DNA of 64,000 nt from Nitrospiraceae bacterium (GTDB lineage Bacteria; Nitrospirota; Nitrospiria; Nitrospirales; UBA2166): the NCBI GenBank assembly GCA_002726235.1, contig PBSN01000007.1, positions 1 through 64,000 on the forward strand. The letters are read 5' to 3'. The notes under the pieces are model-generated. The model did not search any database and was not told where the DNA came from. It saw only the letters and a list, made by a program, of their open reading frames with translations. Below, one piece after another: positions 954-12,038 of the stretch. A program made the translations under genes and the position numbers. Position 1 is the stretch's first letter, and each line of letters starts with the position of its first letter.

Positions 954-1466
954 TCAGTCCTCGTTTGCTATGAGTCGTCGCTTCAGAATCCACATTTCGT
1001 ACAGCGGAAGAGTGGACATCAGTACAAAGCTACTAATCATGAAGAAATCCCCCAAAAGCAAGGTGAGCGCAAAGACTTCAGAAACGTACAGGATCAACCA
1101 GGGAGAAAGAAGATCGAGGCCGACGCCTGTGAATGACATATAAGCCATGGTAATCTTGAGCCATCTGGGCGCCATAGTGAGGAAAAAAATATGGACGATG
1201 ATGAGGAAGACGATGGGCATTGTAAACAGGTGAAAGTGGGTGATTTCGGCTAATTCATGAAACGATTTTGGTTCACCGAAGGTGGCATCAGATCCGAGGT
1301 AGTGGGTGATGACGCCGTCATAGGACAACCCGTTCATCGTATAGGCCCAGTAGAGGGTGAGCGCAAATCCGATACCAACGATGCTGACGAAGAAGGTATA
1401 GACCAAGCGAATTTGGCGATCAGTATCCAGCAGCCTGAAGCGAGTGTTAAAGTTGCGCATCTTCAA
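954..1466 (-). CDS. Four-helix membrane protein, partner of the FMN-binding protein
   Basis: This 170-residue integral inner-membrane protein has about four hydrophobic helices (roughly residues 21-43, 78-98, 103-128 and 131-155). A histidine cluster (H77, H79, H92) lies at the start of and within helix 2; these could be haem-b or metal ligands, but that is inference. The start codon overlaps the stop of the upstream FMN-binding gene by four bases (ATGA), so the two are probably translationally coupled and work together. I do not recognise a named family. With an FMN-binding exported partner, a porin and a lipoprotein in one operon, a role in moving electrons across the inner membrane to a periplasmic flavin is plausible. 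Confidence 0.75.
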   Translation of the reverse strand: MKMRNFNTRFRLLDTDRQIRLVYTFFVSIVGIGFALTLYWAYTMNGLSYDGVITHYLGSDATFGEPKSFHELAEITHFHLFTMPIVFLIIVHIFFLTMAPRWLKITMAYMSFTGVGLDLLSPWLILYVSEVFALTLLLGDFFMISSFVLMSTLPLYEMWILKRRLIANED

Positions 1467-2161
1467 TTTCCAAATAATCGATTAAAAAATCCCCGAGACG
1501 TTTTCTTCTTGTGTTCAATGGCGCCACATGGCGTTCCCTGCGGATTCAAGTAGAGTTCCTCGGTCAACACCAACGCCCGTTTTACCCCAGCGCTTGCCGA
1601 CCGGACTGACATCGTTGCCCCAGTGATGTTAATAATGTCCCGATTAATTCTGATCGGATCGTCTGATTGTTTGCCTTTGTATTGGTACATAAACCGGGGC
1701 TTGCGAATATCGGCACCACGGCTCTCTCGATAGATGAGCATCTCTACCTGGGAGACTTTGCCGGAAGGTGTGATCCCTACCATGTAAGTCATCGGGCGGT
1801 ACTTCCCAATGGTGTTTTGAATGGATGTGTATCCATCAATGGTGCCGTCTGTTTCACCGATAAAAAACTCAAAACTCGTTTCTGGGAATTTCCAGCCGAT
1901 GCGGCGCTCAATACAGGATTTTTGCTCAGGGGTAATCTTCCTGCTTTCCGCTTGAATAGTCTTGGATTGGGGGAGGAGCAATTTTAATGCTTCGTCTTCG
2001 GTTAGGTAGACGACTTCCTTCCCGATTTCTTGGGTTGTGAGCCACCGTCCGAGCTCTTCATCAAAGATTCGGTCGCGTATTTCCGCTCCATAGGATTGTG
2101 GTATTGCTTGGGTAGATAGGAGGAGGATCACGGCGATGATAGTGAACAGTGGGTGAGACAT
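1463..2161 (-). CDS. Exported FMN-binding domain protein (RnfG/NqrC-like)
   Basis: The 232-residue protein starts with a signal peptide (about residues 1-25, ending QSYGA). Near the C-terminus it carries TGAT at residues 180-183 within the context NITGATMS, the threonine motif to which ApbE attaches FMN in RnfG, NqrC and related FMN-binding domains. The Asp often found three residues before the motif is Ile here. The ATG at 2161 was chosen because the signal peptide begins directly after it; longer frames upstream add an unconvincing 45 residues. It probably acts as a periplasmic one-electron carrier for the membrane protein encoded immediately downstream. Covalent flavin attachment is predicted from family knowledge. 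Confidence 0.8.
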   Translation of the reverse strand: MSHPLFTIIAVILLLSTQAIPQSYGAEIRDRIFDEELGRWLTTQEIGKEVVYLTEDEALKLLLPQSKTIQAESRKITPEQKSCIERRIGWKFPETSFEFFIGETDGTIDGYTSIQNTIGKYRPMTYMVGITPSGKVSQVEMLIYRESRGADIRKPRFMYQYKGKQSDDPIRINRDIINITGATMSVRSASAGVKRALVLTEELYLNPQGTPCGAIEHKKKTSRGFFNRLFGN

Positions 2162-2300
2162 TATATGGTTCGACAGTCTCGTTTTTTCCGGCGATTGGCA
2201 ATGCGTGAGAGCACGTGATGTTTGACTGCAGGTAACGCCGGTGTATGAAGCCAGCGTAGAGAGAGAGGTGTTGCCATGGGGATAACCCACACGCACCGTG

Positions 2301-2762
2301 TTAGATGGGATGGCATCCGTGTTTTTTGAGGCGTTGCTGGATGGTGTTCAGGATTCGACGTTCAACGTGGGGCGATCCATCGACCGGGAACCACCGCAGT
2401 GCTTTCACTCCGCTGAGGGGATGTTCTTGTCGAACGTGAATAACGCGGATGGTCGATACATCGTGATCATCAATGATTTTTACGAATAGACTGGAGCGTT
2501 CTTGCGTAAGTTTTCGCCCAAACGCTCCGACGCCTTGCTTCGACATGCCTTTTTCCCAATCGGTCTCGAGGACACCGGAGGATTTGTCGGCCGTGATCAG
2601 CGTGGCGCGTTCGAGTACCATGAGGCTCTCGTCCCACACCGTGTCGTACTGACAGCGAACGGTCGAGGTTTGCCCTCCGGAGAGACTGGCGCAACCAATG
2701 AGTAGGCTCGGGAGAATTATGGTGCTGGCGAATCGAAACAATGAATAGCTTCTGCTCATCAT
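2301..2762 (-). CDS. Small lipoprotein of unknown function
   Basis: The 153-residue product has a charged N-terminus, a hydrophobic stretch and a lipobox LLIGC at about residues 20-24, so it should be lipid-anchored. The mature part is soluble, without a family I recognise; it contains a Trp-rich strand pattern (DTVWDESL, ETDWEKG) reminiscent of beta-rich outer-membrane lipoproteins. It lies 21 bases downstream of the porin gene and about 140 bases upstream of the FMN-binding gene, in the same direction. Two ATG codons occur at the start; the first is listed. Confidence 0.75.
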   Translation of the reverse strand: MMSRSYSLFRFASTIILPSLLIGCASLSGGQTSTVRCQYDTVWDESLMVLERATLITADKSSGVLETDWEKGMSKQGVGAFGRKLTQERSSLFVKIIDDHDVSTIRVIHVRQEHPLSGVKALRWFPVDGSPHVERRILNTIQQRLKKHGCHPI

Positions 2763-2783
2763 CTTGTCTTCTGGTGTATTGTG

Positions 2784-4133
2784 TCAGAAGTACGTCGCGA
2801 CGGAAAGGACAATTCCATCGTTCATGACGTCTCGTCCGGTAATGCGGTTGGGCTCGAAATTGTACTGGTATTCAAATTTGAACACGGTATCCTCTGTTGG
2901 CCGGAAATTGATTCCTGGAGTAATCCGAAATACATCGCCTTCCAGTCCCGGAGTATCGAGGTTCGTGTTCACATCGTCAACCCGAAAAACTCCCGTAAAA
3001 ATGGAATCATCACTAAAATATTTTGGGGCCAGTTGTTGGATGAACGTCGGCATAAAGTGATAGTTGAATTGTCCATACCAGCCGAACATGCGTTCGGGGA
3101 GTCCGATGAACCGGCCATCGAGATCTCTGTCATTACCTTTAATTGTGGTATAAGCCGCCTCGCCTAAAAATTCCCACGGTCCCCGCATAAAGGTCCAGTC
3201 CAGGGCGCCGATAGTCAAGGGGCGTTTTGACTCAGGGTCGATCTTTGCATGATAGCCTGATACACCGAGTTCGACGCCTAGGATTGGGCTATAGGCCAAT
3301 CGGCCGACGAGAGCTTGGTTGTTATTGTTGTCCAGATTCAGACCAACGTCTGTGGTTTGCCAGCGAGCGCCAGCCAGCCCTCCGGCATCGGTGATTCGTG
3401 GAGTGCCATCCTTGGAAAATCCATTCATGCCTTGCGTTATATAGACCTCGTAATCTAGCTTGGAGAGTCGGGTGGGATAGAAGGTTCCAAAAACTCCTAC
3501 TCCAGGCTCACGCAGTACGCCGGGAATGACCCTGAGAGTTACTTCTGGGCGTTGTGTGAGATCGTTGATGGGAGAATCGTGGACCAGATTGAATTTGCCG
3601 ACCGGAAGGAGTATGACTCCGGCACGGAAATTGATCCACTCCGCAAAGGAGTGGTCGATGACCGCAAATTCCAGTTCTGCTTCGCCGATGCCATGTTCAA
3701 CTTCGAGTTCGGCAGCCATGCGGGTGTTTTCTGTGACATCAGAATAGATAAAGGGCACAAAACGAGTTTGATCAAAGCTAGCGTTTGGATTTCGGCGAGC
3801 ATTAGTGGGACCCTTTAGGTTGGCATATTCGAGGTCCATATACCCGCCAATTACTGCGCGGGGGTTGCTGTAGCCGGGTCTTGCATAGATGAGACCGCCA
3901 CTGCCGCCGTAGCGTAAGCCTGCTGCCTGGGCTTTGCGTTTTTGTTGTTGGTCTTCTAGGTCATGGTCGGCCAGCTCATGTTGTAGTAATTCATCGCTGA
4001 GCTTCTCGAGTTTTTTAATGCGCTCCTCAAGTGATAGTTCTTTTTCATCTTCAGCACCGACTGTTGGGGCAAATCCAAACATTAATAGTGCTGTCAGGAT
4101 CGCGATGGTGCATGATGTGCGCCTATGTTTCAC
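2784..4133 (-). CDS. Outer-membrane porin-like protein with N-terminal coiled coil
   Basis: The 449-residue protein starts at a GTG preceded by GAGGAGG at good spacing. It has a signal peptide ending near VGAEDEKE, then a heptad-like segment (about residues 30-70, rich in E, K, L, H and Q) as found in porins that trimerise or bind peptidoglycan. The rest is a long alternating beta-strand region with aromatic girdles, ending in Phe, the usual last residue of outer-membrane beta-barrels. It resembles phosphate-selective-porin-like (OprO/P type) or similar proteins, but the substrate cannot be read from sequence. It is first in a minus-strand operon with a lipoprotein, an FMN-binding protein and a membrane protein. 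Confidence 0.8.
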   Translation of the reverse strand: MKHRRTSCTIAILTALLMFGFAPTVGAEDEKELSLEERIKKLEKLSDELLQHELADHDLEDQQQKRKAQAAGLRYGGSGGLIYARPGYSNPRAVIGGYMDLEYANLKGPTNARRNPNASFDQTRFVPFIYSDVTENTRMAAELEVEHGIGEAELEFAVIDHSFAEWINFRAGVILLPVGKFNLVHDSPINDLTQRPEVTLRVIPGVLREPGVGVFGTFYPTRLSKLDYEVYITQGMNGFSKDGTPRITDAGGLAGARWQTTDVGLNLDNNNNQALVGRLAYSPILGVELGVSGYHAKIDPESKRPLTIGALDWTFMRGPWEFLGEAAYTTIKGNDRDLDGRFIGLPERMFGWYGQFNYHFMPTFIQQLAPKYFSDDSIFTGVFRVDDVNTNLDTPGLEGDVFRITPGINFRPTEDTVFKFEYQYNFEPNRITGRDVMNDGIVLSVATYF

Positions 4134-4241: not shown

Positions 4242-5870
4242 TTACTGTTGGCTGATTGGGGTGCTCTTCCGAGAGTCTTCACGCGTTCCACAATAAGAAA
4301 ACAATGACAATGTTGAAAACCACGGTTCCACATATCTGGAACGTCTGAACGTCGTGAGATAGTCGAAACAGTAGTATTTCGAGAGTTTCTGTCCCAGCTT
4401 TGAACTGAACAGCACGGTGCCTTGGAATTCGGCTGCACGCACCACGGCAGCAACCTCATTCAATCCGCGTGCGCGCGCGACATCAAATTCCGGCGCATGA
4501 TAGGCGAACAGTCGTTGGGTCTCCCAGGTAAACACGCTGGTCTCTTCGGGATCAAAGTGGGTTTTGACATGTTCGACAAATGCACTTTGTGGAGGCATTG
4601 TCTCGGCGTAGGCCTTGACCAGGGGGAAGGTGATCAGGCTTGAAAAGATAACTGCCAGAGTGCCAATTGCGGGAGCAACTAATTTCAGCTTGGTATTGCC
4701 CCACTGGAACATCAAAACACCGATAGTCACGCCAGCCAGTGGGTAGAGAAAGAGGATAGGCGGAAGCGCATGGCGTGGGCGTTCCGGGTTTTGACCGATG
4801 AGGATCCATACTAGGTATGGTGCGATCAGTGCACCAACACTCAGCATCGCCGGACGTATTGGCTTGTGAAGCATTGCCCACAACAAGAGGAGACAAAAAC
4901 TGATTGAGAAAGGCACTCTCCATATGTTTTGTGGTGCTTCCGGCCAATATCCTCCAAGCGAAAACGCCCAGATTCCCCACCACCATGTCATGTACCGGCC
5001 CAACCCGATCTCGTCCGAAAAGACTGTGCCTCCCCAGCGGGTGAAGTGTCCGGTACTAAAGTGAATACTTGACTGAATCAATTCTGCCGATCCGGTGTGG
5101 AGGATAAGTGGGAGGATCCATACGCAAGTCCCTATTCCAAGGCCTCCACATCCCCAGAGTGCCAATTCCTTGAAACGGGTTGGCCGTTGTATGAGTATGA
5201 TGAGGGCACACCCTAGGACAAACGGCCAGTAACTCAATCGTGTTCCAAGAACTAGGCCCATCAATGCTCCTGTAGTGCCAACCCACCACAAGGAGGAAGA
5301 TCGTTTGGCGCTGGGGTAGAGTGCGTAGGTCAGTGTAAGGGCGACCCAGGGGAGGAGGGAGCACCCAAGCGCATCGCTGAGAGGTTTTTCGGCTTGTAGC
5401 CATAGGCCGGGACTCAGGAGATATAAGCTGACTGCGGTCACTCCAGCCCAGAGCACAATTCCCGACGTGGCATCATTTAAATAAGGGGAAAGGGAAGACT
5501 TTGTTGCATAACAGGAACGATCGTTCTCATTTGGTGGGGGAGGAGGGGTGATGCACCGCTTAGTCCAGTGCGAGGCGAGTAAGGCGATTGGAATCACTGC
5601 GAGTGTGCTGAAAACGATGCCAGGGAGAATCAAGGCGGTGGTGTCCTGCATGACGGTGGGTCGGATCGCCCATTGGAAGCTTTTTGCCAACGCGATGTAA
5701 ACTGGATAGCCTGGGAGGTGTGGTTGATGTTTTGCAAGATCAAACTCATGGAGCGCGAGAGCAAAGTCTACAGCGTCCCAACCTTCCAGATAGTGGCCTC
5801 GGTATAACCAGCGAAGGGTCCCTCCTGCCACAACCAAGCACAACAAAAATGATGTATATGTCCGTCTCAT
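4242..5870 (-). CDS. Polytopic membrane glycosyltransferase-like protein (GT-C/PMT type)
   Basis: The 542-residue protein has an N-terminal signal-anchor helix and roughly ten to twelve hydrophobic helices. Between helices 1 and 2 lies an acidic loop (GWDAVDFALALHEFD) followed by HLPGYPVY, the arrangement seen in GT-C transferases of the ArnT/PMT/GT39 class that use lipid-phosphate sugars on the outer face of the inner membrane. The C-terminus is a short soluble domain. It stands alone between the porin operon and the P19-like pair, so the acceptor is unknown; LPS, a glycoprotein or another glycolipid are all possible. Confidence 0.68.
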   Translation of the reverse strand: MRRTYTSFLLCLVVAGGTLRWLYRGHYLEGWDAVDFALALHEFDLAKHQPHLPGYPVYIALAKSFQWAIRPTVMQDTTALILPGIVFSTLAVIPIALLASHWTKRCITPPPPPNENDRSCYATKSSLSPYLNDATSGIVLWAGVTAVSLYLLSPGLWLQAEKPLSDALGCSLLPWVALTLTYALYPSAKRSSSLWWVGTTGALMGLVLGTRLSYWPFVLGCALIILIQRPTRFKELALWGCGGLGIGTCVWILPLILHTGSAELIQSSIHFSTGHFTRWGGTVFSDEIGLGRYMTWWWGIWAFSLGGYWPEAPQNIWRVPFSISFCLLLLWAMLHKPIRPAMLSVGALIAPYLVWILIGQNPERPRHALPPILFLYPLAGVTIGVLMFQWGNTKLKLVAPAIGTLAVIFSSLITFPLVKAYAETMPPQSAFVEHVKTHFDPEETSVFTWETQRLFAYHAPEFDVARARGLNEVAAVVRAAEFQGTVLFSSKLGQKLSKYYCFDYLTTFRRSRYVEPWFSTLSLFSYCGTREDSRKSTPISQQ

Positions 5871-5910: not shown

Positions 5911-6672
5911 TTAGTAGGCGTATCCACCTCCGGTTGCTTCTTCCGTTGGCGGCAGGGGCACTCCTCCTCCTGTTCCTCCTTGACTACTGCCGATGGTCTT
6001 GAAGTCGCCGAGGAGAAAGCCGCCTGTCACGACTACTGGGTCTGTTCCAAATACTGATCCAGAACGCTCGTGTGTTGGCGAGATATCTGATCGCATTGCA
6101 ATTCCGGGAGAAATTGCCGATTGGTTGGAGCTTCCGGCCTGGGCGGGAGCAGTGATGGTGACTTTCGCATCGTACCCTGCCTCGGAGGCTTTCAGTGTGT
6201 CAACTAAAGCGATATTTCTCGCGTAATGGAATCCTTCAGCAATACCCACGTGCGGAACAAGGGTTGTATCGAGAGATTTGCCCGTATCGCGATTTGTTAG
6301 TTTGAGGTTGACGTTTAGGTAGGGAACAAATTCGCCTTCAGCTTTGCCACCAAGAACAGCGCCAGAATACCGGATTTGTGCTTCAAAATGTATGTCGGCT
6401 GCTGTTTTTGGGGTAAGGGGTCCCCCTACTGGTTCAGCTGGTTCAAGAATCATGTCTGGGGGAGCTACTTCTAAGGTGATGGTCATATTGCCGCTAGATG
6501 CCGGCGCGTCTTCTACTAGGACCAGCTCGCCTGTAAAGTTTGGAACGGTTTCAACTGCAGGGGGGACATTACTGTCGCAACCTATTAACAGACTGAGAAT
6601 TCCAATCAAGCCCATTACCCGCACAAGCTGGCCTGCATATTTGTTCGAAGATGGTCTATGAGTCAGTATCAT
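5911..6672 (-). CDS. P19-like (Fe2+ transport) periplasmic lipoprotein
   Basis: The 253-residue protein is preceded by GAGGAG and has a lipobox LLIGC (C32). The centre matches the P19/Tp34 iron-transport fold: DIHFEAQI (H95, E97), EFVPYLNV, then VPHVGIAEGFHYARNI (E146, H149). In P19, His and Glu of the first motif, and Met, Asp and His of the second, bind copper and iron; His and Glu are kept here, Asp is Glu and Met is replaced. The C-terminal tail is Gly/Pro rich. It lies 28 bases downstream of a second P19-like gene, so the two are probably co-expressed and act in periplasmic iron handling. Metal binding is inference from the family. Confidence 0.75.
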   Translation of the reverse strand: MILTHRPSSNKYAGQLVRVMGLIGILSLLIGCDSNVPPAVETVPNFTGELVLVEDAPASSGNMTITLEVAPPDMILEPAEPVGGPLTPKTAADIHFEAQIRYSGAVLGGKAEGEFVPYLNVNLKLTNRDTGKSLDTTLVPHVGIAEGFHYARNIALVDTLKASEAGYDAKVTITAPAQAGSSNQSAISPGIAMRSDISPTHERSGSVFGTDPVVVTGGFLLGDFKTIGSSQGGTGGGVPLPPTEEATGGGYAY

Positions 6673-6700
6673 TGTTTTTTCTCCTCGCTTCAGCTTGGGA

Positions 6701-8269
6701 TCATGGAATAGTCGTTGGGTTGCCACGGCGGGTAGCAGTTAGGATATTGGCAAATGCTGAACTAAGACGCTGCATGAAGTCTTGTGCCTGCGTTTGCGTG
6801 AAAATGGCCTGTTCTCGGTCGTCAATTGTTGTGGCATCAAAGTTTGGAGCAAGGTAATTGATATTACTGAAGAATGCCCTTGCTTCGGCGCGGGCTTTTC
6901 CAAATGCTTCGAGATCACCAGGGGCTTTCCCTCGCATACTGACGATTTCGTGGTAGACGGCGAGATAAAAGATTTGGGTCAGGCGAGTTTCGATAATACT
7001 GATGTGAGTCTGAATACCCGTTCCACCGCTCGCGATGGTGCTTGCCCCAGCTAAAAAGGCATTATCAATACTGTCTACCAGATCACAGTCGATATTGGCG
7101 GGAGTTCCAAACTCCGCCCCTTCGCAATTGCCCTCTCTGCTCGTCGCGGTTCCTCGGATAGCTTGCCAGAATGCCCAGGCCTCGTCCCAATTATGACCGG
7201 CACCTGAGATGGCGTCGATTTCCCCGGCAGGAACTTTTTCAATAACCTCATCAAATTCATGAAGCAGATTAAGGTAAAACATCCGTTGCGCACCCTTTTC
7301 GGCCCATTCGCCACATTCCATGGGAAAGATGGTGCCATTGACGTTGCAGTCGTTTCCGATTGGACGCTGGGCTAACGCATTTGCGACGTTATCTTCTGCT
7401 GAGGCTAATACAGCTGCCGTAAGGCCACGACTTGCTGCGTAGCGGCTCGGATCTTCGTATTTTATGAATGAGGTTTTGAGGTTTTCGCCAAATCCAGTAT
7501 CGGAGCCATACAGTATGCTCGCGGTCGCAAAATCTGGGAGTGCAGCATTCATTGTTTCGAAATTCGAGACAAGCGCTTGCTGTTTGTCAACGTTCCCTAT
7601 GGGCATTGTGGTGGCGGGTGGAACGCCAGTGGGTGCTATGCTCCCTGAACTTCCACTGGGAGTTTGAGGAACATTTCCTGAGCTGCCAAATGAGGTTACG
7701 GTGGTTAATATGGGGACTCCTCCAGTATCACGGAAGAGTGCAGATGGAGGTACGGCATCATAGTGAACTGCTAGAACGTTGTCTGAAAACATCGTGACTT
7801 CTAGGAGGTACTGATCGTTGAAGGGATTGCCGAGTGGATCAGATGAAGGAAGTGCCACGTTTGAACCATAGCTCCATCCCGCATCATTTCCGAGTGTAGG
7901 AACGAGATCAAACGCGAGGATTCCGGCTCCTGGATTCGAGCGATTTATAATCTGTACACGCATTCGCTGATACGGAATGAAGTCCCCGGCATTGCGAGCG
8001 CCAAACACTTGGGCTCGTTCCGCAAAGAGGCGTACTTGGAAATACATATCTGCCAGATTGTTGGAGACTTGTCCGTTAACAATAGCTGGAACGAGGGTGG
8101 TTACCTCGGCGATTTCAACCACTGCCTCAATCGTTTCTCCAAACAACTCCGCTTCGCCAAGTTCAATTGCAGAAACTGAGGGGGCCCGGGGATCTTTGGG
8201 GGCTTGTGCAAACGTGTGTGATGCCATGACAGTACATAGTAGGATCATGACGATTTGTATTTGTCTCAT
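6701..8269 (-). CDS. Two-domain exported protein: degenerate P19-like domain plus FEA1/imelysin-like helical domain
   Basis: The 522-residue protein has a signal peptide (cleavage after HTFA). Residues about 35-170 follow the P19 pattern (DMYFQVRL, DFIPYQRM, LVPTLGNDAGWSYGSNV, YLLEVTMFSDN), but the usual metal ligands are changed (HxE to YxQ, H to S). A Gly/Ser/Thr/Pro linker (about 190-235) leads to an alpha-helical C-terminal domain with NWDEAWAFW and conserved Glu/His positions (LHEFDE, YHEIVS). This reminds me of algal FEA1-type iron-assimilation proteins or of imelysin-like domains; the assignment is tentative. SD AAAGGA precedes the ATG. With the next gene it forms a likely iron-acquisition pair. 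Confidence 0.68.
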   Translation of the reverse strand: MRQIQIVMILLCTVMASHTFAQAPKDPRAPSVSAIELGEAELFGETIEAVVEIAEVTTLVPAIVNGQVSNNLADMYFQVRLFAERAQVFGARNAGDFIPYQRMRVQIINRSNPGAGILAFDLVPTLGNDAGWSYGSNVALPSSDPLGNPFNDQYLLEVTMFSDNVLAVHYDAVPPSALFRDTGGVPILTTVTSFGSSGNVPQTPSGSSGSIAPTGVPPATTMPIGNVDKQQALVSNFETMNAALPDFATASILYGSDTGFGENLKTSFIKYEDPSRYAASRGLTAAVLASAEDNVANALAQRPIGNDCNVNGTIFPMECGEWAEKGAQRMFYLNLLHEFDEVIEKVPAGEIDAISGAGHNWDEAWAFWQAIRGTATSREGNCEGAEFGTPANIDCDLVDSIDNAFLAGASTIASGGTGIQTHISIIETRLTQIFYLAVYHEIVSMRGKAPGDLEAFGKARAEARAFFSNINYLAPNFDATTIDDREQAIFTQTQAQDFMQRLSSAFANILTATRRGNPTTIP

Positions 8270-8451: not shown

Positions 8452-9879
8452 CTATGTCGCAGTAAGCGCATCGATTTCAAGCAATGCCTTCTCGGTGCGA
8501 ATTGATTGGATATGTTTGAGGTTTCGTGAGCCTTGCATAATTTGATGTGCTGCTTCGATGCCCATTTCCATTGCCGTATCGAGGAAAATATACCTAAAGA
8601 TCCCCTGCCGTCCGCCGGTTAATACGTTCTCCATTTTTGCAACTTCTGCAAGGAGAGTATCCCTATCATGTTGATATCCAAGATGGTAGATGGGGTATCC
8701 GTGTTCGACCCACACGCTATGATGGTCGAGGGCAACCGAGTCAATGTTATATCCGAGTGATCGAAGCTCAAGGGACATTTCCTGAAATAGGGTGTTGCCA
8801 TCGGCCTCCCAGATTTTGTCACCGACTGAGCAGGGAATTTCCAGCATGATCGATGTTTTGCCTTGCGGCACCATTTCAGAGCTACGGCGTTTAGGTTCCT
8901 GGATGCGGCTCATCTTGTACTGGGGTTCCGCGATATACATCCAGGTGTTCTCGCTAAAATCTGGGATGTCGAGTGGGATGTTCAAAAAGCGAAGTGCGCG
9001 AGACCGCAGATTGCCAATCGCCGTTTCCACACCATTAGTTGATTGTGGAGCGATGTATCGTGCCAAGGCGGGCAGTGAAATTGTCGAAAATACCCATGAA
9101 CATGGCAGGAGGTATTCCTGGCCATCAACGTGATAGCGTACAGCCTTCACCCGGTTCCCGACGACGTCGAGGCCGGTCACGTCTGCTCCAAGGTGGATTA
9201 TGCCGCCTTCACGGCACATTCGGGAGGCCATTCGATCAAATAACTGGCCCATGCCAAGCCGTGGATAATAGTATCGGCGGGCATAGGTCCGAATTGGAGA
9301 TCGCCGCAAGCCAATGAGTCGCAATGCGGCATCGCCAAGATTGAGGAGAGAAATGCGTTGTGCCGCCCAGTCTGATGAAATTTGGGTGGGGGGGATGCCC
9401 CAGAGCTTTTCCGTGTACGGGCCGAAGAAGCGATCATAGAGCGGGCGGCCAAATCTGGCGGTCACCCAGCCTTCAAAATGCGATTCGTCACGTGGAGAGA
9501 TGCGGCGACGGATAAGTTCGCCCGCATACCCCAGCAAGGCCTTTAGGTTTAATCCAAGACCGAGATTCTCGACCAGATCTGGCGCGGACAGTGGATAGGC
9601 AAATCGTTTTCCGGAGTGCATCACGACAGATTTGCGCTCGGAGACGAGCATGTCGGCTCCCATCAGGTCGAGAATTCGGCTTGTGAGTTCTTGGTTTTGT
9701 GAAAGAAAGCGGTGTCCTCCAAGATCAAAACGATATTCGCCAAATGTATTTGTTGCGCAGAGTCCGCCGGGACGCGGCTCTCGCTCAAGGACCACGACAT
9801 CCCATCCTTGAGCGGCCAATTCCCACGCACAACTTAAGCCACAGGGACCGCCACCCAGTATGACAATAGGGTCTTTCAT
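8452..9879 (-). CDS. FAD-dependent oxidoreductase of the amine oxidase / UDP-galactopyranose mutase-like class
   Basis: The 475-residue protein opens with a Rossmann ADP-binding motif (VILGGGPCGLSCAWEL) and an acidic strand end (VVVLEREPRPGGLC), then DLGGHRF, which fits FAD-binding proteins of the amine-oxidase/protoporphyrinogen-oxidase clan. YTEKLWGIPP and the C-terminal region (TGGRQGIFRYIFLDTAMEMG) match bacterial NAD(P)/FAD-dependent proteins annotated near UDP-galactopyranose mutase. The ATG at 9879 overlaps the stop of the bfd gene by four bases, which decides the start and suggests translational coupling to the ferredoxin. The substrate is not visible from sequence. Coupling to Bfd is unusual because that ferredoxin is normally reduced by an unrelated flavoprotein. 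Confidence 0.8.
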   Translation of the reverse strand: MKDPIVILGGGPCGLSCAWELAAQGWDVVVLEREPRPGGLCATNTFGEYRFDLGGHRFLSQNQELTSRILDLMGADMLVSERKSVVMHSGKRFAYPLSAPDLVENLGLGLNLKALLGYAGELIRRRISPRDESHFEGWVTARFGRPLYDRFFGPYTEKLWGIPPTQISSDWAAQRISLLNLGDAALRLIGLRRSPIRTYARRYYYPRLGMGQLFDRMASRMCREGGIIHLGADVTGLDVVGNRVKAVRYHVDGQEYLLPCSWVFSTISLPALARYIAPQSTNGVETAIGNLRSRALRFLNIPLDIPDFSENTWMYIAEPQYKMSRIQEPKRRSSEMVPQGKTSIMLEIPCSVGDKIWEADGNTLFQEMSLELRSLGYNIDSVALDHHSVWVEHGYPIYHLGYQHDRDTLLAEVAKMENVLTGGRQGIFRYIFLDTAMEMGIEAAHQIMQGSRNLKHIQSIRTEKALLEIDALTAT

Positions 9880-10073
9880 CTGGTTTCCGTTTGGGTATGG
9901 GCAGTGCATTCTGCCGCGACCTGTATCAGATCCTCGATATTCTCAGCGCATCTCCCGCAGCAATCACGGTCGAGATCGAAAGCTGTGATAAGTGAATCGG
10001 GATCAGACCCGTGTTTTGACAATGCGCATTGCATCTTCCGGTCGGTGATTCCTTTACAGAGGCACAGATACAT
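9876..10073 (-). CDS. bfd: Bacterioferritin-associated ferredoxin (Bfd-type [2Fe-2S])
   Basis: The 65-residue protein begins MYLCLCKGITD and ends its core with DCCGRCAENI. It has the CxC and CxxC pairs that hold the [2Fe-2S] cluster in BFD-like domains. Bfd delivers electrons to bacterioferritin to release stored iron. SD GGAG lies 5 bases before the ATG. A Fur-type operator sits 18 bases upstream and the divergent gene encodes bacterioferritin, which supports the assignment and suggests iron-controlled expression. The downstream FAD gene overlaps by four bases. Confidence 0.9.
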   Translation of the reverse strand: MYLCLCKGITDRKMQCALSKHGSDPDSLITAFDLDRDCCGRCAENIEDLIQVAAECTAHTQTETR

Positions 10074-10090
10074 GATGAAGTCTCCATATG

Positions 10091-10115
10091 GATAATGCTA
10101 ATGATTATGATTATC
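10091..10115. promoter_or_regulatory. Candidate Fur box between bfd and bfr
   Basis: The sequence gataatgctaatgattatga followed by ttatc fits the classical Fur consensus (gataatgataatcattatc) as overlapping NATAAT-type hexamers in both orientations. It lies 18 bases upstream of the bfd start and about 10 bases upstream of a possible -35 element for bfr. Iron-loaded Fur here would repress bfd with its coupled FAD gene, and could also affect bfr. Binding is inferred from sequence only. Confidence 0.75.
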
Positions 10116-10154: not shown

Positions 10155-10269
10155 GATTCTGCCCGTATTGACTTATAGTTGGCACAATCACATGAGGCCA
10201 CCATGTTTTCATACTTAATAAATTGCGAGGTGGCGTGGCCAAATACGTAGTGTTGACGGGAGGGATGTG

Positions 10270-10743
10270 ATGAAAGCAAAAAAAGGTGTTGTTGAGTATC
10301 TCAATAAACTTTTGACCAATGAGTTGACCGCAATCAATCAATATTTTCTCCATGCCGAGATGTGTGAGAACTGGGGGTATGATCGGCTGTATCACAAAAT
10401 TCGAGCCGAATCCGTTGACGAAATGAAACATGCAGAGGATCTTATCGAACACATTTTGTACCTGGAAGGCGTTCCCAACGTACAACGCCTTAACACCATT
10501 ACCATTGGGCAGACGGTCTTGGAACAACTCAAACTTGACCTGAAGGTGGAACAGGGAGCGGTGATCCTTTTCAACGAAGCAATTGCTCACTGTGTCAAGG
10601 TTGGGGATAACACCACGCGTAACAAACTGGAAGACATGCTGGAGTCCGAAGAGGGACACGTCGATTTCATCGAGACCCAACTTGAAACTATCAAGCAAGT
10701 TGGCCTCCAAAATTACCTCAGCCAGCAAATTAAGAACGACTAG
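10270..10743 (+). CDS. bfr: Bacterioferritin
   Basis: The 157-residue protein has the full ferroxidase ligand set of bacterioferritin in canonical numbering from the ATG at 10270: E18 (TNELTAINQYF), E51 and H54 (DEMKHAED), E94 (LFNEAIAH), E127 and H130 (ESEEGHVDF). M52, the haem ligand at the subunit interface, is also present. The 24-mer stores iron as ferrihydrite in the cytoplasm. GGGAGG lies 6 bases before the chosen ATG; an in-frame GTG one codon earlier is less likely. It is divergent from bfd with a Fur box between. Confidence 0.95.
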   Translation: MKAKKGVVEYLNKLLTNELTAINQYFLHAEMCENWGYDRLYHKIRAESVDEMKHAEDLIEHILYLEGVPNVQRLNTITIGQTVLEQLKLDLKVEQGAVILFNEAIAHCVKVGDNTTRNKLEDMLESEEGHVDFIETQLETIKQVGLQNYLSQQIKND

Positions 10744-11139: not shown

Positions 11140-11457
11140 TTACTCGTATTTGATGGCCAATCCGCGAGCGTCTGCTTGGCAGTGCAAGAGGAATGCCCAC
11201 CAACAGTTGTTGGCAATTTCTACATCAACCACGTCATCTGCACCCATTTCTTTCGCGGTCGCTGTAAGCTTGTTTAAAACGGCACCCTTGGAAATATCGG
11301 CAAATGGCATTGACCAGCCCGACACCTCAACTGTTCCTAGGACTTTATGCGGTTTTGTGATTGACTTTGAGTCGACACTCATCTGGGTCAAGGGGTAGGA
11401 ACATCCAACAAGAAATGCACTCGCGCAAATAATTGCAAGGAATTTTACGTTCATCAT
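11140..11457 (-). CDS. Small lipoprotein, paralogue A
   Basis: The 105-residue lipoprotein starts at the ATG after ATGGAGGCATAC (11457) and has a lipobox FLVGC. The mature part ends GADDVVDVEIANNCWW...CQADARGLAIKYE, an alpha/beta pattern with two cysteines that resembles the small domain of RcsF/YbjQ/TRL-like proteins. It is clearly related to the next upstream gene (11490-11846) and lies 32 bases from it. I do not recognise a named family; an envelope role is likely from the lipid anchor. Confidence 0.8.
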   Translation of the reverse strand: MMNVKFLAIICASAFLVGCSYPLTQMSVDSKSITKPHKVLGTVEVSGWSMPFADISKGAVLNKLTATAKEMGADDVVDVEIANNCWWAFLLHCQADARGLAIKYE

Positions 11458-11489
11458 GTATGCCTCCATATCGTTTGATCGTCTCGGCT

Positions 11490-11846
11490 TTACTGAGGAT
11501 TCGCCGCATCCTCATATTTCACAGCTACGCCGAGACCGTCGGCCCAGCATCTGATTACCTCTCCGATAGCGGGAACCACCGACCAATAACAGTTATTCTT
11601 TACCCTGATATCTAGAATGTCATCTGCTCCGAGAACATCTGCTTTTGTTCGCAGCGTGTGCATCATTTTTCCAACTGCAATCTCGCCAAAAAAAGCCCAC
11701 TCGGAGGCTTCAACGGTTTGCTGCCATTTGATTGGCTTATTCACAGTCTCGGAGGTAACAATTCCCATGGGTGCCATTGAATAGGAACAGGAAATCGTCG
11801 ACAAAGACAAAAACACCAAGCAACCGAATACATGCCATCGTGTCAT
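11490..11846 (-). CDS. Small lipoprotein, paralogue B
   Basis: The 118-residue protein starts at an ATG with SD AAGGAG nine bases before it and has a lipobox STISC. Like its neighbour, it contains SYSMAPMG, VEASEWAFFGEIAVGK and GADDILDIRVKNNCYW...RCWADGLGVAVKYE. The shared spacing of two Cys and the GADD motif shows a tandem duplication. The fold prediction (RcsF/YbjQ-like) is inference. No signal for substrate or partner is visible. Confidence 0.8.
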   Translation of the reverse strand: MTRWHVFGCLVFLSLSTISCSYSMAPMGIVTSETVNKPIKWQQTVEASEWAFFGEIAVGKMMHTLRTKADVLGADDILDIRVKNNCYWSVVPAIGEVIRCWADGLGVAVKYEDAANPQ

Positions 11847-12038
11847 AGGGTGGCTCCTTCCCTTGAAATATATCGGAGTAACTCTCAAGCGTCTTTCGCC
11901 TTCACATATGCATGAATTGTGTCATGATCTATCATGGTTCGTTGTTCATTGTAGCACAGCAACATTGCAGAAAAGAAAAGAAGCCATCGCCATTATCTAG
12001 CTGTCCGTTATTTTCGTTCCGTTAGATAGATCAATGGT

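Follow-up and report, generated by a model that had tools for sequence, protein, structure and literature searches.

Introduction

The described systems closest to the locus presented here are the P19/FetP/FtrA proteins, the FEA1 (phytotransferrin) proteins, EfeO, and the FbpABC ferric importers. P19, FetP, and FtrA, known from the FetMP and FtrABCD systems, share one beta-sandwich family, and P19/FetP have been tied to iron transport where studied (PMC10783030). The FEA1 domain (PF07692; NF038033) is helical, carries an HNWDE.WAF core, and includes ISIP2A and Ot-Fea1, which serve iron uptake or iron binding in algae (PMC7676907, PMC4855317). Domains of this type are central to the iron uptake of many marine algae. 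EfeO, the cupredoxin plus M75/imelysin protein of the EfeUOB system, combines a beta-sandwich with a helical part (PMC9174327).

The locus described below can be compared with each of these systems. One of its two exported proteins is a lipoprotein that retains most of the His/Glu metal site of the P19 family, with the Met ligand being His, whereas the second carries a ligand-free P19 copy fused to an FEA1 domain, and, in distinction from FetMP and FtrABCD, no FTR1/FetM permease was found in the genome. The fusion protein has the same helical domain and core as the FEA1 family but scores far below the NF038033 cut-off, is joined to P19, has invariant residues replaced, and is itself no lipoprotein. 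It shares the layout of EfeO, being exported and made up of a beta-sandwich metal domain with a helical, presumably iron-binding domain behind it, although neither of its domains matches the EfeO families and no EfeU (FTR1) was found here. FbpABC is present in the genome, and relatives have it close to the same outer-membrane module, but the pair is not of a binding-protein type known to feed FbpBC. Each part belongs to a described family, and the locus is probably a novel arrangement of familiar components for capturing iron on the outer side of the inner membrane. Our literature search turned up no description of the P19-FEA1 combination, and neither a solved FEA1 structure nor a paper on prokaryotic FEA1 partners was found in the libraries searched. 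We consider it likely that the lipoprotein and the P19-FEA1 carrier serve Fur-repressed capture and hand-over of iron in the periplasm. A compact bacterial P19-FEA1 protein would make both FEA1 chemistry and its transport partner testable in a bacterial host, with the assets of a structurally understood iron-binding domain, a Fur-box-like site, and few candidate importers.

Genomic Setting and Gene Order

The window, by which we mean the whole 64-kb stretch of DNA that was analyzed, lies at the beginning of contig 7 in the 1.87 Mb, 91% complete genome of a little-known bacterium related to nitrite oxidizers. An earlier note had described two neighboring exported P19-type proteins at 5911-8269, and both genes were indeed recovered there on the minus strand, with the gene for the fusion being transcribed first and the adjacent lipoprotein gene second (Table 1). 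They form part of a same-strand run that consists of bfd, the FAD oxidoreductase, the fusion, the P19 lipoprotein, the GT-C protein, the porin, the small lipoprotein, the FMN-binding protein, and the four-helix (4TM) membrane protein, and which, judging by strand and spacing, is presumably read as one transcript from bfd onward.

Table 1. Features of the locus, in window coordinates
Feature	Position	Strand	Remarks
170-aa membrane protein of module	954..1466	-	some four hydrophobic helices judged by eye; profiles gave no match
FMN-binding (RnfG-like) protein	1463..2296	-	flavinylation-like TGATMS motif, read by eye
Small lipoprotein of module	2301..2762	-	DUF3576 20.2 bits, below 25-bit cut-off
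Outer-membrane porin of module	2784..4133	-	weak BBP2 match, 15.4 bits, below 26.2 cut-off
GT-C membrane glycosyltransferase (TMEM260-like)	4242..5870	-	profile search
P19 (Iron_transport, PF10634) lipoprotein	5911..6672	-	253 aa; Cys32 lipobox; ligands H95/E97/H141/H149, acidic E146
P19-FEA1 fusion	6701..8269	-	522 aa; signal peptide at the N-terminus, roughly residues 1-21 (by eye)
FEA1 helical domain (PF07692 / NF038033-like) of fusion	6731..7603	-	about residues 223-513; HNWDEAWAFW at 359-368
Ligand-free P19 domain of fusion	7730..8152	-	about residues 40-180; Pfam match 65-155
PRK07208-type FAD oxidoreductase	8452..9909	-	homologues near FEA1 genes in other phyla
Bfd-like [2Fe-2S] bacterioferritin-associated ferredoxin	9876..10073	-	65 aa; Fer2_BFD 23.3 bits, just below 26-bit cut-off
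Overlapping Fur-box-like array GATAATGCTAATGATTATGATTATC	10091..10115		best 17/19; between bfd and bfr
Bacterioferritin	10267..10743	+	TIGR00754 above cut-off

The same locus is carried by the genome of a sister species (G003), so that its gene order has been seen in two species, and the pair is present in two of the four genomes of the genus. FEA1 and the fusion are confined to this genus among the sampled Nitrospirota, a count from which other NF038033 matches in the phylum, corresponding to the N-terminal end of the model alone, were left out; the plasmids and viral contigs searched yielded no relatives of the fusion. Because only two closely related species are known to carry the fusion, its co-conservation says little.

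The P19 Lipoprotein

In a profile search, the lipoprotein matches PF10634 with 63.2 bits (E 4.2e-17; curated cut-off 21), and its sequence also matches the FetP, P19, and FtrA structures. Its lipobox reads LLIGC, with Cys32 being counted from the protein that starts at the ATG at 6672; for the same start, the residues H95, E97, E146, and H149 singled out in the earlier note are numbered correctly in the alignment with FetP. In that alignment, H95, E97, and H149 correspond to FetP H44, E46, and H97, and E146 aligns with D94, so that the acidic residue of the second site is kept. Of the FetP ligand set H44, E46, M90, H97, and H127, three are therefore retained, while H141 occupies the position of the copper ligand M90 and the H127 loop is missing. 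The same Met to His change is seen in the lone P19 protein of another Nitrospirales genome (G036).

This site bears on the metal, which the earlier note had left as iron or copper. The pair might handle copper or another metal, with the iron genes as mere neighbors, considering that P19 proteins have a copper site next to the one presumed for iron (PMC9174327) and that the lipoprotein keeps much of the copper site; but here His stands in for the copper ligand Met, the family is associated with iron transport as outlined above, and a Fur-box-like site, bacterioferritin, a Bfd-like gene, and an iron module adjoin the pair, all of which makes this reading very improbable. Since the Fur-box-like site and the bacterioferritin and Bfd-like genes are adjacent, and an order-wide iron module is joined to the pair, the metal can be narrowed to iron rather than copper.

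The P19-FEA1 Fusion Protein

No lipobox was seen at the N-terminus of the fusion. Its N-terminal half matches PF10634 above the cut-off of 21 (23.2 bits, E 8.6e-5, residues 65-155), and the P19 domains of the two proteins match each other with 33% identity (E 2e-5). The four ligand positions are occupied by Y76, Q78, T125, and S133, so the loss of ligands read from the letters alone holds for this protein, while the fusion of the sister species keeps His at the first of them. Mixed P19 and FEA1 alignments were not used, as their P19 rows were misplaced.

The C-terminal half had been called FEA1/imelysin-like, and the two parts of that name fared differently. The FEA1 assignment is supported by matches to PF07692 (residues 335-370; 29.9 bits, E 3.8e-7; above the cut-off of 25) and to NF038033, "FEA1-related lipoprotein" (residues 334-483; 46.5 bits, E 2e-12), the latter lying below the 250-bit equivalog cut-off, and the NWDEAWAFW motif reported previously is present at residues 360-368. 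No match to the imelysin/peptidase M75 profile was found in the fusion at E up to 1, and the fold predicted for the FEA1 family comes no closer to imelysins than to unrelated helical bundles, so that "imelysin-like" survives only as an analogy to EfeO. Structure prediction, which had been proposed for the two-domain protein, gave an AlphaFold model of low confidence (pLDDT 60) without a usable overall match in the PDB, with FetP no higher than rank 37 (E 1.4). For the FEA1 family, a helical domain is predicted at pLDDT 97, and no relative of it, imelysins included, stands out among solved structures: 3n8u (Z 5.8), 4ecg (Z 4.9), and EfeO 7wgu (Z 3.7) score no better than unrelated helical proteins.

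Compared with 32 prokaryotic members of the family, the fusion keeps the FEA1 residues H337, E338, H359, D362, E363, R378, and E462, whereas three family-invariant residues are replaced (His by Q230, Asp by N236, and Tyr by E441), as is a mostly conserved His (A459). Four conserved FEA1 residues are replaced in both species with the fusion. Because several invariant residues have been lost, a scaffold role comes into consideration: both halves of the fusion would be degenerate, and the protein, no longer binding metal, would act as a scaffold or docking subunit for the P19 lipoprotein, the sole carrier of iron. Such a role would fit the replacement of all four P19 ligands and of the four FEA1 residues, but the FEA1 core that is best conserved (LHE, HNWDE, R378, E462) is intact and other acidic residues, such as E441, could serve as ligands, and we regard it as unlikely, if worth keeping in mind.

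Predicted Fur Control and the Surrounding Genes

The Fur-box-like array, which consists of three overlapping consensus matches in six-base steps from 10091, is the strongest such site of the window; a 17/19 match was found once, against 0.01 expected from shuffles. A 16/19 site lies at the same place in the sister genome, and a congener that lacks the pair (G001, L150) has a 17/19 site directly before the porin; in other Nitrospirales, too, the porin is preceded by similar sites, with scores of 16/19 (L146) and 15/19 (L149). Since in this congener the module is found without P19/FEA1 genes at the locus and with a Fur-box-like site of its own, the pair was either gained by, or lost from, an iron locus inside the genus. 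The first genes after the array are bfd and the FAD oxidoreductase and not the pair itself, for which Fur control is a prediction from sequence and gene order.

The pair is also flanked by the GT-C protein and the PRK07208-type FAD oxidoreductase, and FEA1 loci elsewhere likewise neighbor glycosyltransferase and PRK07208-type genes, so one may ask whether the P19 and FEA1 genes are part of a surface-glycan locus and precede the porin module by accident. Both domains are, however, from iron-protein families, the control is Fur-box-like, and iron genes lie on both sides, and we give this explanation very little weight relative to the capture of iron by the pair.

Nine FEA1 loci in other phyla contain homologues of the FAD oxidoreductase (E to 4e-53), among them those at L039:3606-5033, L036:327-1721, L028:6865-7998, and L059:2708-4153. 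The TMEM260-like GT-C gene adjoins genes for proteins with Ser/Thr/Gly/Pro-rich linkers (near 7612-7723 and 5914-5990), and in other loci FEA1 lipoproteins carry long Ser/Gly/Ala linkers and lie beside glycosyltransferase genes; O-glycosylation is conceivable. Further along the window, two adjoining and similar small lipoproteins (11140-11469 and 11490-11888) appear to be a tandem duplicate.

The Order-Wide Module and Candidate Routes of Import

Downstream of the pair lies a module of porin, small lipoprotein, FMN-binding protein, and 4TM protein (window 954-4133) that is found throughout the order Nitrospirales (L146, L147, L149, L150, and L151), and the porin homologue in L146 matches Porin_O_P. 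The module neighbors Fur, FbpABC, and ApbE genes in one genome (G009), similar genes in another (G018), and ApbE together with ExbB/ExbD/TonB-like genes in a third (G200), some of these names having been assigned by eye, and it looks like an uncharacterized iron system.

The earlier note had seen no FTR1-type permease nearby, and this extends to the whole 91% complete genome, in which profile searches found neither FTR1 nor FeoB. Contig 4 of the same genome carries Fur-FbpB-FbpC, and contig 12 encodes an FbpA-like protein. The best NCBIfam models for FbpB and FbpA are of the 2-aminoethylphosphonate type, all below cut-off, and the substrate is presumably, though not certainly, iron, judging by the likeness to the module-adjacent genes of G009 and by Fur-box-like sites, each with a 15/19 match, ahead of fur (L155) and ahead of the FbpA-like gene that G003 carries (L161). 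The idea that the pair replaces FbpA was dropped once the FbpA-like gene was found on another contig.

Proposed Pathway

In the pathway that we favor, iron probably enters through the outer-membrane porin of the operon and would be bound by the membrane-anchored P19 lipoprotein at its retained His/Glu site, while the soluble P19-FEA1 protein may work like EfeO, as a carrier with two domains, of which the helical FEA1 domain would hold iron. P19 proteins dimerize, and the ligand-free P19 domain of the fusion may therefore pair or dock with the lipoprotein. The downstream flavin/4TM module may set the redox state of the iron, and the FbpABC-type ABC transporter, the one dedicated iron importer that the genome was found to carry, would be the likeliest route across the inner membrane. 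We infer metal binding, heteromer formation, the hand-over, its direction, and the redox step. The suggestion of the earlier note that the two proteins may form a new capture system is a fair though tentative reading; its parts are drawn from families already known, and only one genus has so far yielded the fusion.

Prokaryotic Relatives of the FEA1 Domain

To place the helical domain, relatives were collected from a genome collection with the degenerate pattern WDE[AG]WAF[YW], which returned 104 stretches. As the search took exact matches to one motif, fusions with an altered motif could exist beyond them. Ten variants were probed against the FEA1 profile solely to choose the motif (the probed segment began ERAQ, the protein EKGAQ). 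In the loci read, H[AN]WDE[AG]WAF[YW] occurs in 76 proteins, mostly marine; their hosts are the Poseidoniales (marine group II archaea), Acidimicrobiia, Dehalococcoidia, and a small number of other groups. Both PF07692 and NF038033 match every one of the 32 representatives scanned, and through these recruited relatives the FEA1 identity of the C-terminal domain of the fusion is confirmed at the level of sequence. Profile searches, which had been proposed as the check, have thus placed both proteins in P19 and the C-terminal half in FEA1.

In 42 of the 76 cases, from marine archaea, Acidimicrobiia, and Dehalococcoidia, the FEA1 gene lies at most 2.5 kb from ABC-importer or binding-protein genes of iron-type families. 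The neighbors within this distance include phosphonate-type binding proteins, ABC ATPases, and FbpA-, FetB-, and FecB-like genes; one of the phosphonate-type binding proteins was tested and gave a Transferrin-domain match. The flippase-like query of this tally also matches FEA1 proteins, and its counts were not relied on. Such frequent ABC-type neighbors link FEA1 in prokaryotes to ABC-type import and not to FTR1. That the pair represents a new kind of periplasmic carrier, in which P19 is joined to an algal phytotransferrin domain and, together with the P19 lipoprotein, feeds an ABC importer instead of FTR1, is a possibility that we regard as less likely than not.

The P19-FEA1 combination was found neither in the 38 other FEA1 genomes searched for P19 nor in the sampled Nitrospirota outside the genus. 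A general partnership of P19 with FEA1 was rejected, given that none of those 38 genomes has a P19 domain.

Two of the recruited loci deserve mention in their own right. Beside a marine archaeal FEA1 gene, the protein encoded at L025:4127-6283 matches both Phosphonate-bd (1.7e-20) and Transferrin (6e-18) and has genes for a PhnE-like permease and an ABC ATPase nearby; its relatives lie near many other FEA1 genes, with similar genes at other marine group II loci, and such a locus is a possible prokaryotic transferrin-FEA1 iron importer. A Dehalococcoidia FEA1 protein (L032:4602-6914) has two FEA1 domains in tandem, and can be likened to the algal FEA1 proteins, which have even-numbered repeats (PMC4855317).
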